Below are positions 32,404 through 39,719 of a stretch of DNA of 64,000 nucleotides, in pieces. The notes below the pieces were generated by a model that saw only the letters and a program-made list of their open reading frames with translations, made no database searches and was not told the DNA's origin. The stretch spans positions 1 to 64,000 of the forward strand of contig JAAWHK010000004.1 of assembly GCA_022795805.1 (NCBI GenBank), written 5' to 3'. Both the position numbers and the translations under genes were made by a program. The DNA is from Hungatella sp. GTDB lineage: Bacteria > Bacillota > Clostridia > Lachnospirales > Lachnospiraceae. Each line of letters begins with the position of its first letter. Within the stretch, counting starts at the first letter, position 1.

Positions 32404-32656
32404 GTATAAGCTCCCCTTTTCCTGCAGATGTACTCCCGGAGTACAAGTAGTTTAAATCGTATCTCGCTGCTGCCGGACAAAATGCCCGCCTGCGCCTTTT
32501 TCCTATTATACCGTTAAGGGGAAGGCTTTTCAACCGGCAGATGGTTTTTGGTGATGACTTTCTCCGTCACTGTGTGGTATAGTGGTCTTATGGCGGGAAG
32601 CGGCCCGGGTTCTTGATCGGTCCGGGAAATTTGACGCTTCCGAAAAGAGGTGCGGA

Positions 32657-34375
32657 ATGAGATACAGGGAAGGTATATGGGGGATTGGTTTGGCGGTGAT
32701 TTTGGCGGTGGTTCTTATGACGGCCGGCGGATGTAAACCGGCCGGCCGGTTCGGAGGCGGGGAATATACGGCTGCGGCGGTGGAGGATGGGGCGTACGGG
32801 GACACGGGGGGAACGGCAGAGGAATATATGGAGGATGAGGGGGAGCTTAAAAGGCCTGTGCGGGGGAAGATTAAGAGGGAGGAGTGGGAAAAACCGGATC
32901 CGGTGGAAGAGGTCAGGGCCGTCCCCGGGGCAATCACATTTCGAGAGCCGGCCATTGAGGCGGCGGCCAGAGAATTTCTGGGGAAACCGGAGGGGGACAT
33001 CGCTCCGTGGGAAGTGCTTTCCGTTACGGAGCTGGATTTAAACCAGGATATCGACAGCGTTGAGGATCTCAGGTGGTTTTTGAATCTTGAGAGCTTCTCC
33101 GCGATGTTCGGTGATCTGAAAAGCCTGAGGGGAATTGAGGGACTGGGGAAGCTGCAGGTTCTGGAGGTGAGAAAGAACAAGATTACCAGCCTTGAACCGG
33201 TGAGAAACTTAAAGAATCTTAAGGAGCTTGACTGCGCCATGAACGCGATCCGGGACTACGGGCCCCTGTCAGGGCTGGTGAATCTGGAGAGGCTGTGCAT
33301 CGGGGACAATGACATGTTCTATACGGATCTGTCCCCATTAAAAGACCTGAAAAACCTGAAATCTTTCTACGGGCCATATTGCGGGATCCGGGATATCTCC
33401 GTTTTCGCCGGTATGGAAGAGCTGGAGTACCTGCAGCTGTCCCGCAATGTAATCAGGGACGTAAGTCCCCTGGCAGGTCTTAAAAAACTGCGGTACCTGG
33501 AACTGTGGAGCAACTATGTTGCGGATATTGAGCCCCTGAAGAATCTGCGCATGCTGTCCCATGTGAATCTTCGGGAAAATAAGATTTCGGAGGAGGAGCT
33601 GGAGGATTTCTATGAGCCGAAGGAGGAGGACTATTTTGTCACCACGGTCAGGGGAAGGCTGAAGGAGGAGATGCCGGAGTTTGCCTTTGACATTGACGCG
33701 GCACTCTGCCGGGAGACATCCGATTACTGGATCCGGTCTGTTACGGTCCGGGAAAATAATCGGAAACTGCAGGTTATCTCCATACCGGAGCTGACATGCT
33801 TCGGCCAGACGGCGGTGCCCTGTCAGGAAAACATGGGGGTCGACATGGCGCTTAGTCTGGAGGATGTGAACTTTGACGGGTACAAAGACATCCGGCTGTG
33901 GGACACCCTCAACGGAAATTACAGGCAGGAGTGGGTCTATCTGGTGTGGAATCCCGAAACCGGGCAGTTTGAACACGATCCAAGGCTCAGCGAAATCTCC
34001 ATGGCAGGTTTTGACCAGGAAGAGAAGTGTATCTACGGGATGACACGGGCTTGGGCCGCAGGACACAGCTATTATACCTATCGGTATATAGACGGCGAGA
34101 TCGTTCTCACGGTCATGGAGACGGAGGAGCTTGTAATGATAGACGAGGAGAATACAGGCAGGTGCCTTGCCATGGCAGGCGTGGAAGAAGACGGCGCCTA
34201 TGCGGAAGTCTTGCACAGGACGCTTATGGAGAGGAATCCTGAAACCGGGAGGCTGGAAAATGTGAAAGACGAATATGAGTTTATCCTCGAGTATTCAGAG
34301 GAAAACAGGAATGAGACTTTTACCGTGGAAGCAGACTCGCGGGTGGGGAAATTTCTGGAGGAGCTGGAGAAGTAG
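32657..34375 (+). CDS. leucine-rich-repeat lipoprotein
   Basis: Signal/lipobox-like VVLMTAGGC and tandem LRRs (LEVRKNKITSLEPVRNLKNLKELDCAMNAIRDYGPLSGLVNL...). Confidence 0.85.
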   Translation: MRYREGIWGIGLAVILAVVLMTAGGCKPAGRFGGGEYTAAAVEDGAYGDTGGTAEEYMEDEGELKRPVRGKIKREEWEKPDPVEEVRAVPGAITFREPAIEAAAREFLGKPEGDIAPWEVLSVTELDLNQDIDSVEDLRWFLNLESFSAMFGDLKSLRGIEGLGKLQVLEVRKNKITSLEPVRNLKNLKELDCAMNAIRDYGPLSGLVNLERLCIGDNDMFYTDLSPLKDLKNLKSFYGPYCGIRDISVFAGMEELEYLQLSRNVIRDVSPLAGLKKLRYLELWSNYVADIEPLKNLRMLSHVNLRENKISEEELEDFYEPKEEDYFVTTVRGRLKEEMPEFAFDIDAALCRETSDYWIRSVTVRENNRKLQVISIPELTCFGQTAVPCQENMGVDMALSLEDVNFDGYKDIRLWDTLNGNYRQEWVYLVWNPETGQFEHDPRLSEISMAGFDQEEKCIYGMTRAWAAGHSYYTYRYIDGEIVLTVMETEELVMIDEENTGRCLAMAGVEEDGAYAEVLHRTLMERNPETGRLENVKDEYEFILEYSEENRNETFTVEADSRVGKFLEELEK

Positions 34376-34488
34376 GGCGGAAGAAAAAAGGTTTTATTTT
34401 GTGTCCGTATGTGATAAAATTATGGAAGCGCCGGCATATCAGGCTGGCGGCAGAGAACAAAAATACTGTGAGACAGGAGGCGGATCCC

Positions 34489-34548
34489 ATGAAAAGAGGA
34501 AACTGCATGTACATGTGCATTGCAAAAGCTCCGTGCAGGGTCTTTTAG
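34489..34548 (+). CDS. putative 19-aa regulatory leader peptide MKRGNCMYMCIAKAPCRVF
   Basis: Strong SD AGGAGG 8 nt upstream of ATG; followed by nested inverted repeats before the MFS gene. Confidence 0.5.
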   Translation: MKRGNCMYMCIAKAPCRVF

Positions 34549-34638
34549 AGCAGGATTGCACGGAGAGGAGCATTTGAAGACTGCTCTGGGACTTTGCACA
34601 CCCGGGTAAATCAAATTTATCTGAAAAGGAGCAAAGTC
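34529..34638 (+). promoter_or_regulatory. candidate attenuator: three inverted repeats between leader ORF and MFS start
   Basis: CTCCGTGCA/TGCACGGAG (34529-37/34557-65), AGAGCAG/CTGCTCT (34547-53/34581-87), GACTTTGC/GCAAAGTC (34590-97/34631-38, abutting SD and ATG 34640). Confidence 0.5.
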
Positions 34639-34639
34639 T

Positions 34640-35938
34640 ATGAATAACATGAAAGAATTTATAACAGCTGTAAAAGAGATGAGGACCTACCTGATCCTTT
34701 GGCTTACCCAGTCGTTTTCCGGTCTGGGCAGCGCCATGACCAGCTACGCGCTGGTGATCTGGTCCTACAACGAACATGGCTCAGCGCTGATGACCGCCCT
34801 TTTGATGGTCAGTTCCTACGCGCCCTACGTGGTGTTCAGCATTTTTGCCGGGGCTCTCAGCGACAGGTGGGACAAGAAAGCCACCATGCTGTCATGCGAC
34901 TTTGCAGCGGCAGCTACCACGGTGATCATGCTGGTTCTGCTTAAAGGGGGCAGGCTCCGGATATGGCATCTCTACCTTTTAAACATGATCAACGGGCTGA
35001 TGAACACGGTGCAGCAGCCGGCGTCGGAAGTGGCGGTCACCAGGGTGCTGCCCAAGAAGTACTACCAGCGGGTGGGAGGGCTTAAATACTTTGCAGCCTC
35101 CTTAAACTCCATCATGACGCCGATCATCGCCACTGCGGTTCTGGGACTGGCGGGTATGGAAGCCGTCGCGGCTTTTGATCTGTTTACCTTTGGCGTCGCC
35201 TTTGTGACCCTGGCCTTCTGCATAAAGATTCCCCGGAAGGAGAGGGACGGGGCTGGGAAGGAGAAACTGCTTGCCGCGGCTGGAAAGGGAATCGCTTACC
35301 TGAGACGGGAGAGAGGGATCTTTCAACTGATCCTCTTTCTGGCAGCCATCAACCTGGTGGCCTCTGTCTACGAAGCCGCCTTTCCCGCCATGATGCTTTC
35401 GCGGGAAGGGGGAGGAGAAAAGGTTCTGGGCCTGGTCAATGCGGTTATCGGCCTCACCACCTTCGCAGGAAGCATTCTGGCATCCTTCATGAAGGCGCCA
35501 AAAAGCCGGGTGAAGGTTATCTGCAGATGCCTGCTGTTTTCCATGAGCACGGAGAATTTCCTGCTGGCATTAGGAAGGACGCCTTTTGTGTGGTGCCTGG
35601 GAGGCTTTCTGGGGTGGATCGCCATTCCTCTTATGAGCACGAACCTGGACGCTATTATGCGGCTTCGTGTGCCGGAGGATATGCAGGGGAGGGTGTACTC
35701 CGTGAGAAATTCCCTGCAGTTTTTTACCATTCCCGTGGGGTATTTCCTGGGAGGCTTCCTGGTGGACGTGGTCTTTGAGCCGATTATGGCCGGGCAGGAA
35801 GCGGGGAGTATTCTGGTCGGGATGTTTGGAAGCGGGAAAGGGTCCGGAGCGGCGTTTCTCTTCTTTGTCATCGCCTTCGCGGGAATCGGCGTGTGCCTCC
35901 ATTTCAGGAGAAACAGGGATATATGGGAGCTGGAGTAG
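34640..35938 (+). CDS. MFS transporter (MFS_3/macrolide-efflux-like)
   Basis: LILWLTQSFSGLGSAMTSYALVIWSY...LSDRWDKKATMLSCD...12 TM. Confidence 0.88.
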   Translation: MNNMKEFITAVKEMRTYLILWLTQSFSGLGSAMTSYALVIWSYNEHGSALMTALLMVSSYAPYVVFSIFAGALSDRWDKKATMLSCDFAAAATTVIMLVLLKGGRLRIWHLYLLNMINGLMNTVQQPASEVAVTRVLPKKYYQRVGGLKYFAASLNSIMTPIIATAVLGLAGMEAVAAFDLFTFGVAFVTLAFCIKIPRKERDGAGKEKLLAAAGKGIAYLRRERGIFQLILFLAAINLVASVYEAAFPAMMLSREGGGEKVLGLVNAVIGLTTFAGSILASFMKAPKSRVKVICRCLLFSMSTENFLLALGRTPFVWCLGGFLGWIAIPLMSTNLDAIMRLRVPEDMQGRVYSVRNSLQFFTIPVGYFLGGFLVDVVFEPIMAGQEAGSILVGMFGSGKGSGAAFLFFVIAFAGIGVCLHFRRNRDIWELE

Positions 35939-36123: not shown

Positions 36124-36144
36124 CAAATGAAGGGAGGAGATTCT

Positions 36145-36492
36145 ATGGCCCGGGAACAGTTTCAGAGTCTCAGCGAGCAGATGTACTATATCTTGCTGGC
36201 TCTGTGGGACGTGCAGTGCGGGGCGGATATTTCCAGGCGGGTGGATCAGCTGTCGCAGGGGCGCATCCGGATCGGTCCCGGCACGCTGTATACGCTGCTG
36301 GGGCGTTTTCAGGAGCAGGAGATGATTCGGGAGACGCAGAGCGCCGGCAGAAAGCGGTACTATGTGATCACGGAGAAGGGAAAACGGATGATGTACACGG
36401 AGTACGTCAGACTTCAGACGCTGATCCAGGACGGAGCGCCTTATCTGGGTGCGGAGAAGGCAAAAGAGACGGGGATAAAAGGAGGTCTGTGA
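36145..36492 (+). CDS. PadR family transcriptional regulator
   Basis: EQMYYILLALWDVQCGADISRRVDQLSQGRIRIGPGTLYTLLGRFQEQEMI; RBS gggagga. Confidence 0.9.
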   Translation: MAREQFQSLSEQMYYILLALWDVQCGADISRRVDQLSQGRIRIGPGTLYTLLGRFQEQEMIRETQSAGRKRYYVITEKGKRMMYTEYVRLQTLIQDGAPYLGAEKAKETGIKGGL

Positions 36493-36493
36493 G

Positions 36494-37372
36494 ATGGGAA
36501 GAGGGAGAAAGTATGCGGCCGCGTTTTTTCAGGTCTACGAGAACGATTCTTTGAGGGATTACCTGGAGGATATGGCTCTTAAGGGATGGCGGCTGGAGCG
36601 TGTGGGAAACGTATTTTTTCGTTTTGAGCCGTGTGCACCCCACAGGATACGCTACTGTGTGGAGGTCATGGAGAAGCCCAGCGTCTACGCGTCCAATCAG
36701 TCCGAAAAGCTGAAAGCGTACCGGGAATTCTGCCGTGACGCGGGGTGGGACTATGCCGGGTCCACGGGATATCTCCACATATTTTACACGGAGGAGGATG
36801 AGGCGGTGGTGGTGGAGACCGACCCTGAGGAGCGGTATGAGCGGATCTGTCAGGCCTGCCAGGGGAATGGCCGGCTGACGTACGCGATTTTCGGGCTGGT
36901 CATCCTCTCCAATCTGTTCAGCTGTTACATGAAAAAAAGTTTCATGAATATCAACGGCTGGATCGTTCTGCTTATGATCGGATTCATGGCCGTGAGCCAG
37001 GGAGAGTTTCTGCGGTGGAAAGCCAGAACCGGCAGGTCTATGAGGGAGGACGGCGTTCTTTTCTGCTCCCCGTGGCAAACGGTGAAAAGGAAGAACTATG
37101 GCTTGATCCTGTCAGTCCTTGTCATGAGCGCGGCCCCTCTGATCTATACCCTGGGTCAGTATTCGTCGAAGGCCGTGGTGTTTGTTATGGTGGGGTTCTG
37201 GATGATTTACATTCTGATTCTGGCGTTTGTCTTCTCAAAGCTGCTGTACTGGCTGAAGGCGAAGCGGGCCTACAGCGCCAGAACCAACATGTTTCTCTAC
37301 TGGGGAATAAGCCTGGTGATCTGTATCGGGGCCTGCGCCGGTTTTCTGGCCGTAATTTTCCGGATTCTGTGA
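36494..37372 (+). CDS. DUF2812 domain-containing membrane protein
   Basis: DYLEDMALKGWRLERVGNVFFRFEPCAPHRIRYCVEV; typical PadR partner. Confidence 0.88.
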   Translation: MGRGRKYAAAFFQVYENDSLRDYLEDMALKGWRLERVGNVFFRFEPCAPHRIRYCVEVMEKPSVYASNQSEKLKAYREFCRDAGWDYAGSTGYLHIFYTEEDEAVVVETDPEERYERICQACQGNGRLTYAIFGLVILSNLFSCYMKKSFMNINGWIVLLMIGFMAVSQGEFLRWKARTGRSMREDGVLFCSPWQTVKRKNYGLILSVLVMSAAPLIYTLGQYSSKAVVFVMVGFWMIYILILAFVFSKLLYWLKAKRAYSARTNMFLYWGISLVICIGACAGFLAVIFRIL

Positions 37373-37444: not shown

Positions 37445-37694
37445 AATACCAATAAGCCAATGCGTTGACGGGGACAGTAGGTTGTCAGGAAGCGTTCAGA
37501 GAGGGATGGAAAGGTGTGAGCATCCCACGTGACCGGCAAAGGAAGACCACCCCTGAGCGGTCCTTAATCGGACACGGTGATTCCGTTATCATCTCAAAAG
37601 CGGTCAGAGCGGCAGTTATGCTCTGACAAGAAGGGTGGAACCGCGATGTGATCGTCCCTTCCTGCAGGAAACTTGCCTGCAGGAAGGGATTTTT
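37445..37694 (+). promoter_or_regulatory. T-box riboswitch (tRNA-Thr), antitermination leader of thrS
   Basis: GACAGTAGG Stem I start, specifier ACC within GGAAGACCACCCCTGAGC (37546-37548), T-box AAGGGTGGAACCGCG 37631-37645, terminator TCCCTTCCTGCAGG/CCTGCAGGAAGGGA + TTTTTG. Confidence 0.93.
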
Positions 37695-37790: not shown

Positions 37791-39719
37791 ATGAAAGTAA
37801 CACTGAAAGACGGAAGTTTTAAAGAGTATGAGCAGCCCATGTCCGTAATCGACATCGCCGCGTCCATCAGTGCCGGCCTGGCCAGGATGGCCTGCGCGGG
37901 GGAGGTAGACGGCGAGAGCGTGGATCTGAGGTATGTGGTGGACAGGGACTGCCAGTTAAACATTCTCACGGCCAGGGATGAGAAGGGGCTGGCGGCTCTG
38001 CGCCACACGGCCAGCCACGTGATGGCACAGGCAGTAAAGAGACTGTATCCCGATGCAAAGCTGGCCATCGGGCCGTCCATCGCCGACGGATTCTACTATG
38101 ATATCGACTTTGCCAACCCCATTGCGGCGGAGGATCTGGAGAAGATCGAGGGGGAGATGAAGAAGATCGTCAAGGAAGGGCTGTGCTTGGAGCGGTTTAC
38201 CCTGCCCAGGGAGGAAGCCCTGGCCCTGATGAGGGAGAAGGAGGAGCCCTACAAGGTGGAGCTTATCGAAGACCTGCCGGAAGGGGAGGAGATCAGCTTC
38301 TACAGGCAGGGAGAATTTACGGACCTGTGCGCCGGGCCTCACCTGATGAACACCAAAGATGTGGGGAAGGCCTACAAGCTGATGAGCATCGCGGGCGCTT
38401 ACTGGAGGGGCAATGAGCACAACAAGATGCTGACCCGCATCTACGCAACGGCATTCGGTAAGAAGGAGGAACTGGAGGCCTACATTACCATGATGGAGGA
38501 GGCCAAAAAGAGGGATCACAGGAAACTGGGGAAGGAACTGGGACTTTTCATGATGCACGACGCAGGTCCGGGATTCCCCTTCTTCCTGCCAAAGGGCATG
38601 GTGCTCAAGAACACGCTGATGGAGTACTGGCGTGAGATTCACAAGAAGGCCGGCTATGTGGAGATCTCCACGCCCGTCATGCTGAACCGGAGCCTGTGGG
38701 AGACTTCCGGCCACTGGGATCACTACAAGAACAACATGTACACCACCGTCATTGACGAGCAGGATTTCGCCATCAAGCCCATGAACTGCCCCGGCGGCGT
38801 GTTGGTGTACGCTTCGGAGCCCCGCTCCTACCGTGACCTTCCTCTCAGGATGGGGGAGATCGGCCTGGTACACCGCCATGAGAAGTCGGGCCAGCTTCAC
38901 GGCCTTATGCGGGTGCGGTGCTTCAGCCAGGACGATGCCCACATTTTCATGACCCCGGAGCAGATCAAGGAGGAGATCAAGGGGGTTGCAACGCTGATCA
39001 ACCAGGTTTACACCCTGTTTGGGTTTAAGTACCATGTGGAGCTGTCCACCAGGCCGGAGGACAGCATGGGAAGCGACGAAGACTGGGAGATGGCTACGGA
39101 GGGCCTTCGCAGCGCCCTGGATGAGCTGGGACTGGACTATGTGGTCAACGAGGGGGACGGCGCGTTCTACGGGCCGAAGATCGACTTCCACCTGGTGGAT
39201 GCCATCGGGAGAACGTGGCAGTGCGGAACCATCCAGCTGGACTTCCAGCTGCCCCAGCGGTTTGAGCTGGAGTACCAGGGTGCGGATGGGGAGAAGCACC
39301 GCCCCATCATGATCCACCGGGTGGCCTTCGGCTCCATCGAGCGGTTCATCGGCATCCTCATCGAGCACTTTGCGGGGGCGTTCCCCACATGGCTGGCTCC
39401 GGTGCAGGTGAAGGTTCTGCCTATCTCCGACAAGTTCGGGGAGTACGCAGAGTCCGTGAGAAAGCAGCTGGATGACGCGGGGATTCGGGTTGAACTGGAT
39501 ACCCGGTCCGAGAAGATCGGCTACAAGATCCGTGAGGCTCAGATGCAGAAGATACCCTACATGCTCATTGTAGGGCAGAAGGAGCAGGAGGAAGGCCTGG
39601 TGGCCGTGAGAAGCAGGTTCGCGGGGGACGAAGGCCAGAAGAGTCTGGGCGAATTTGTGGAGGCCGTCCGGGAGGAGATCCGGACAAAGGCGGTTAGAGA
39701 GGCGAAGGCCCAGCCGTAA
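37791..39719 (+). CDS. thrS: threonyl-tRNA synthetase
   Basis: TGS domain, RHTASHVMAQAVKRLYP, full-length ThrRS motifs (MNCPGG, GDGAFYGPKIDF); T-box upstream. Confidence 0.98.
   Translation: MKVTLKDGSFKEYEQPMSVIDIAASISAGLARMACAGEVDGESVDLRYVVDRDCQLNILTARDEKGLAALRHTASHVMAQAVKRLYPDAKLAIGPSIADGFYYDIDFANPIAAEDLEKIEGEMKKIVKEGLCLERFTLPREEALALMREKEEPYKVELIEDLPEGEEISFYRQGEFTDLCAGPHLMNTKDVGKAYKLMSIAGAYWRGNEHNKMLTRIYATAFGKKEELEAYITMMEEAKKRDHRKLGKELGLFMMHDAGPGFPFFLPKGMVLKNTLMEYWREIHKKAGYVEISTPVMLNRSLWETSGHWDHYKNNMYTTVIDEQDFAIKPMNCPGGVLVYASEPRSYRDLPLRMGEIGLVHRHEKSGQLHGLMRVRCFSQDDAHIFMTPEQIKEEIKGVATLINQVYTLFGFKYHVELSTRPEDSMGSDEDWEMATEGLRSALDELGLDYVVNEGDGAFYGPKIDFHLVDAIGRTWQCGTIQLDFQLPQRFELEYQGADGEKHRPIMIHRVAFGSIERFIGILIEHFAGAFPTWLAPVQVKVLPISDKFGEYAESVRKQLDDAGIRVELDTRSEKIGYKIREAQMQKIPYMLIVGQKEQEEGLVAVRSRFAGDEGQKSLGEFVEAVREEIRTKAVREAKAQP

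Follow-up and report, generated by a model that had tools for sequence, protein, structure and literature searches.

We report a conserved RNA element in front of an MFS drug exporter gene of the window (the whole 64,000-nt stretch of DNA that was analysed), which is very probably a translational attenuator of that exporter. The exporter (34640-35938, + strand) is of the DHA3/TIGR00900 type and is Mef-related, falling well below every Mef cut-off. The attenuator reading is based on conservation, base pairing, compensatory change, a computed position-specific opening and genomic company; from these we infer ribosome stalling itself, the identity of the drug and the substrate of the exporter.

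The proposed mechanism involves a short leader ORF and RNA arms a to e. In the untranslated RNA, the exporter ribosome-binding site (RBS) would be hidden, either by b:d pairing together with arm a on the Shine–Dalgarno (SD) sequence, or by a:c and d:e. A ribosome reaching the leader stop would cover both a and b, so that d would pair with e and the RBS would stay hidden. A ribosome held with about codon 5 (Ile) in its P site would instead cover a and leave b free to capture d, exposing the exporter RBS. What holds the ribosome would be an antibiotic acting on it, most probably one directed at the peptidyl-transferase centre (a phenicol or another Cfr-spectrum drug), and the exporter would remove the drug that induced it.

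Leader ORF, RNA arms and their conservation

A leader ORF of 19 codons, MKRGNCMYMCIAKAPCRVF, runs on the + strand from an ATG at 34489 to a TAG at 34546-34548 (34489-34548), and its SD, AGGAGG (34475-34480, + strand), lies 8 nt before the ATG. Both were read directly and agree with the first-pass annotation; a short ORF with its own SD thus stands upstream of the gene that it would control, and the leader is kept in relatives. A second in-frame ATG (34507), preceded by AGAGGA, would encode MYMCIAKAPCRVF, which has the usual leader length, and is possibly the true start; that the leader in the window is longer than the usual form counts against our preferred explanation. Just 5' of the element lies a gene for a leucine-rich-repeat protein with an XAC2610-type C-terminal domain (32582-34375), and just 3' of the exporter lie genes for a PadR-family regulator and then a DUF2812 protein (36127-37372). 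An ordinary T-box leader (37456-37662; 100 bits, Rfam) is found further on, upstream of a threonyl-tRNA synthetase-like gene (37791-39719).

The arms all lie on the + strand. Arm a, GCTCCGTGCA (34528-34537), has arm c, TGCACGGAG (34557-34565), as its partner, or, through its GCTCC, the exporter SD (GGAGC). Arm b, TGCAGGGTCTTTTAGAGCAG (34534-34553), includes the leader stop and would pair in the ON state with arm d, CTGCTCTGGGACTTTGCAC (34581-34599), whose OFF partner would be arm e, GCAAAGTC (34631-34638); arm e overlaps the final base of the exporter SD AAGGAG (34626-34631), the two together spanning 34626-34638. The first-pass annotation had described three inverted repeats in this region. 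The first, CTCCGTGCA (34529-34537) with TGCACGGAG, is real, as is the third, GACTTTGC (34590-34597) with GCAAAGTC, placed between the MFS SD and the ATG at 34640. The second, AGAGCAG (34547-34553) with CTGCTCT (34581-34587), is present but is only the upper part of the longer b:d helix: GCAGGGTCT (34535-34543, within the leader), which had been overlooked, also pairs with the 34590 arm, so that this repeat forms the top half of a longer, alternative helix, and b:d pairing extends over nearly all of arm b.

The fold of 34520-34655 is unusually stable (z = -4.0; 0/200 shuffles equally stable), and the GGAGC of the exporter SD is predicted to pair, when no ribosome is present, with the 5' GCTCC of arm a. 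Pairing in helices a:c and d:e reaches 97.9% in an alignment of 20 homologs, in which both members of five pairs have changed (0/500 shuffles), and none of the slid registers of these helices exceeds 43%. The alternative b:d helix is 99.5% paired in a 20-sequence alignment, with three pairs changed on both sides, and compensatory changes are seen in every helix. Since the pairs of arm d are conserved with both b and e, this arm is constrained by two partners; arms b, d and e have changed jointly at two loci (L038 and L065). When partners were swapped among 66 elements, 0/2000 permutations matched the native energy for each helix, a test from which relatedness was not removed. The computed pairings are mutually exclusive, and one of them hides the RBS.

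The usual leader has 12 codons, M-x-L-C-I-A-x-A-P-C-[KR]-V-stop, and arm a starts at codon 8 in 43 of 61 leaders, so that codons 3-6 fall outside the RNA arms. Codon 3 is Leu in 46/59 leaders, and because all six Leu codons are used there, selection acts on the peptide itself. Codon 4 is Cys or Ala in 45 leaders (36 and 9, respectively), codon 5 is AUU in 47/59, codon 6 is Ala, Val, Asp or Gly, and codon 7 is unconstrained. On this comparative evidence residues 3-6 are under amino-acid-level selection, which is seen at codons 3, 4 and 6, and codon 5 is perhaps selected also as a codon. The A-P-C motif, which is replaced by A-L-C in Monoglobus and others with arm c changed to match, is by that token dictated by the RNA and not by the peptide.

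Many Clostridia genera share the element, which is conserved in front of orthologs of the MFS exporter (47-84% identity). Within the genus, exporter orthologs occur in 23 of 26 genomes, and they are also present in Hungatella MAGs and Parablautia intestinalis; a leader ending in A-P-C-[KR]-V precedes nearly all orthologs, together with the same arms. Among the 22 genus homologs with upstream sequence, 19 have the full element, one has a shortened form (L012) and two are without it (L011 and L015). In the shortened form (2725-2799, - strand) the exporter start comes almost directly after the leader and arms a and b, and arms d and e are absent; this is either a fault of assembly or a natural deletion, and the latter should lead to constitutive expression of the exporter. 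Absence of the leader and repeats from relatives, which the first-pass annotation had named as evidence against its own proposal, is not what we find: conservation is strong at both the peptide and the base-pair level.

A covariance model search, biased towards the model's own source sequences, matched 32 of the 200 genomes searched in the family and 42 of 391 in the class at E<=0.01, the weakest of these matches being doubtful, and 6/250 genomes across the phylum at E<=1e-4, the window's own included. High-scoring matches directly precede members of this exporter family, whose identity to the exporter of the window is mostly 47-71% and falls to 42% in L053. Low-scoring matches at L067, L070, L071, L073, L098-L100 and L137 resemble chance hits or terminators and were left out. 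A paralogous exporter (36% identical) is preceded by an element of the same topology with a very different arm a, CUCUGUACA (L025, 2770-2896, - strand). Near-identical DNA on plasmids was found in a Monoglobus record only, likewise before an MFS gene; a degenerate leader pattern gave no match in viral contigs, and a looser arm pattern gave two further MFS loci in contigs called viral. No Rfam model reaches its gathering score in 34440-34700 (best 21.5 bits, cut-off 36.8), and no paper naming the leader was found in the literature searched, from which subscription journals were mostly absent. The element is probably novel.

Computed opening of the exporter ribosome-binding site

To mimic a ribosome, 5' sequence was removed stepwise from 52 elements and the free energy needed to unpair the SD-to-AUG stretch was computed at each step. 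This opening energy replaced the mean unpaired probability of the SD, a measure not sharp enough here, as arm e lies over the spacer and not over the SD. The median opening energy is 8.5 kcal/mol with the arms free, 3.1 kcal/mol at a+5 to a+7 and 10.7 kcal/mol at a+15, and the minimum falls at a+4 to a+8 in 51/52 elements. Measured against both flanking states, the dip is positive in 52/52 elements and exceeds 2 kcal/mol in 48/52, as compared to only 1.6% of 1040 dinucleotide shuffles; in the window it is 2.9 kcal/mol, a value attained by 0/300 shuffles. Nested-truncation folding, which the first-pass annotation had proposed, therefore yields the predicted switch: the model predicts an RNA that is closed when the leader is not translated, closed again on full translation, and open only with the leading edge of a ribosome 5-7 nt into arm a.

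About 15 nt separate the first P-site base from the leading edge of the ribosome. Combined with the opening minimum at a+5 to a+7, this distance places the predicted stall with codon 5 in the P site, which in the window would be Ile AUU (34519-34521), followed by Ala GCA (34522-34524) in the A site (34519-34524, + strand).

Associated genes and candidate inducers

The element also precedes genes other than the exporter. At three loci (L091, L092 and L094) these encode CatA-like acetyltransferases, of which the two scanned score 210-212 bits against a CatA cut-off of 270 bits. Two of the three leaders begin MKRGLD, as does the leader MKRGLDEAF at a clostridial CatA locus (L120). That CatA gene and another (L104, leader MARSRKIAF) have simple cat-type attenuators, with one hairpin over the SD; the sharing of MKRGLD between the element and the one-hairpin L120 suggests that a stalling motif has been joined to two RNA architectures. 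The 382 Clostridia genomes hold two Cfr genes, both over the 550-bit cut-off and both with the element directly upstream, behind longer leaders in another reading frame (...RLHAK...CME*). Plasmid-borne clinical cfr(A), (B), (C) and (D) were considered as carriers, and the element is absent from all of them. A similar RNA precedes CD3324-family (87 aa) genes at L068, L072, L074, L136 and L138; the leaders of the first three are longer and end ...LHA[KE]P...CME*. One further element (L065, 1501-1620, - strand) stands before an alpha/beta-hydrolase esterase, a candidate antibiotic-inactivating resistance enzyme.

The opening dip occurs at the same place in the CatA-like, Cfr and esterase elements and in two CD3324 elements (L068 and L136); it is weak in two others (L072 and L074) and shifted in L134, which counts against our preferred explanation. 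Matches of the Cfr and CD3324 elements are weak (22-32 bits), so their likeness to the exporter element may stem from convergence as well as from a shared ancestor. Tentatively, at somewhat below even odds, we suggest one transferable RNA "stall-position decoder", in which the RBS opens only if a ribosome comes to rest at a fixed position, give or take about one codon, and which would have been re-used across Clostridia with differing leaders and frames for the control of export, CatA-like enzymes, Cfr, a possible drug-inactivating esterase and CD3324-type regulators.

As to the inducer, the CatA-like and Cfr genes behind the element point to phenicol-like peptidyl-transferase-centre drugs, and this gene company would favour them over macrolides or tetracyclines; we put the chance that a phenicol or another Cfr-spectrum drug induces the element at about even. 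Chloramphenicol acts best with a penultimate Ala and less well with Ser or Thr, and either a final Asp or a Lys at -3 helps it (PMC11832420). A ribosome with codon 5 in its P site would have Cys (36 leaders) or Ala (9) as the penultimate residue and often Lys or Arg as residue 2, at -3, a resemblance that is suggestive only; the predicted -1 residue is usually Cys and not the favoured Ala, Ser or Thr, and in three leaders the predicted A-site residue is Gly, both of which weigh against our preferred explanation. So does the exporter, which is closer to macrolide exporters than to known phenicol exporters: its best named relatives are Mef(A), Mef(En2) and Mef(C), all far below cut-off. This Mef kinship points to a rather unlikely alternative, in which the same switch would answer to a macrolide or lincosamide and the exporter would be a Mef-like macrolide pump. 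The ErmAL1 leader contains I-A-V-V, and the I-A-x-A core of our leaders lies at the same codon numbers. However, for the RBS to open the ribosome must stall near codon 5, ahead of where it stops in ErmA/ErmC-type leaders, the CatA-like enzymes act on phenicols, and the known mef leader, MTASMRLR with a terminator (PMC4335068), is unlike that of the window.

Nor need a drug be involved at all, as the folding model would have the RBS open whenever a ribosome is held near codon 5, and the leader might sense slow translation generally, through amino-acid shortage or any elongation block. We consider this improbable: the leader has no repeated run of a single amino-acid codon, with Leu, Cys/Ala, Ile and Ala each kept at single positions, and the genes downstream of the element are mainly of drug-resistance types. 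Least credible of all, at only a very slim chance, is transcriptional attenuation as in mef/mel or tet(M), although it is known for a related exporter type (PMC4335068). A search of the + strand from 34300 to 34760, between leader and gene included, found no intrinsic terminator, and the final hairpin covers the RBS and is without a U-run; control is therefore probably translational, not transcriptional. The tet(M)-type leaders that we inspected, moreover, look wholly different from the element. The translational attenuation logic set out in the first-pass annotation thus finds support in conservation, in the truncation switch and in the lack of a + strand terminator.

Relation to known attenuators

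If our translational-attenuator reading is correct, gut commensals carry a widespread and apparently undescribed family of inducible resistance switches, marked by a conserved stalling peptide and by a stall codon that can be predicted, and a single type of sensor would connect an uncharacterised family of exporters with the CatA-like enzymes and with Cfr genes on chromosomes. The covariance model may also find utility in locating further inducible resistance genes, such as that of the L065 esterase.

Attenuators of the cat/cmlA/fexA type use essentially one hairpin, whereas the element has four arms (a:c and d:e against b:d), another leader motif and a DHA3-type exporter; the gene in the window encodes a DHA3 MFS protein and not Cat, CmlA or FexA. 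Stalling on cat-type leaders is said to leave codon 6 in the A site, the same position as predicted here. In these systems, a short leader ORF precedes a phenicol resistance gene or exporter and a stalled ribosome unmasks the RBS (PMC5418344); the element is alike in its leader ORF and, by computation, in that unmasking. With ermC, where a masked arm 1 allows another pairing to release the RBS (PMC5418344), it has the alternative-pairing logic in common, but no Erm gene lies downstream, the ON helix would join leader arm b to d instead of arms 2 and 3, the peptide is different and the predicted stall is earlier.

Mef(E)/mel likewise has a short leader before a DHA3-type MFS exporter, but its leader MTASMRLR acts by transcription termination (PMC4335068), and the element has neither this leader nor a Rho-independent terminator. 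Leader ORFs also precede tet(M) resistance genes in Clostridia. Among ten ribosomal-protection (tet(M)-type) loci that we inspected, none has arms a-e and two have a recognisable leader ORF, reading MLCMPMVMHKNPSD...; the window element, for its part, lacks the tet(M)-type arrangement, in which a ribosomal protection gene follows a leader and a terminator hairpin. By analogy, the element works like the cat/cmlA/fexA and ermC attenuators, and unlike those of mef and tet(M).
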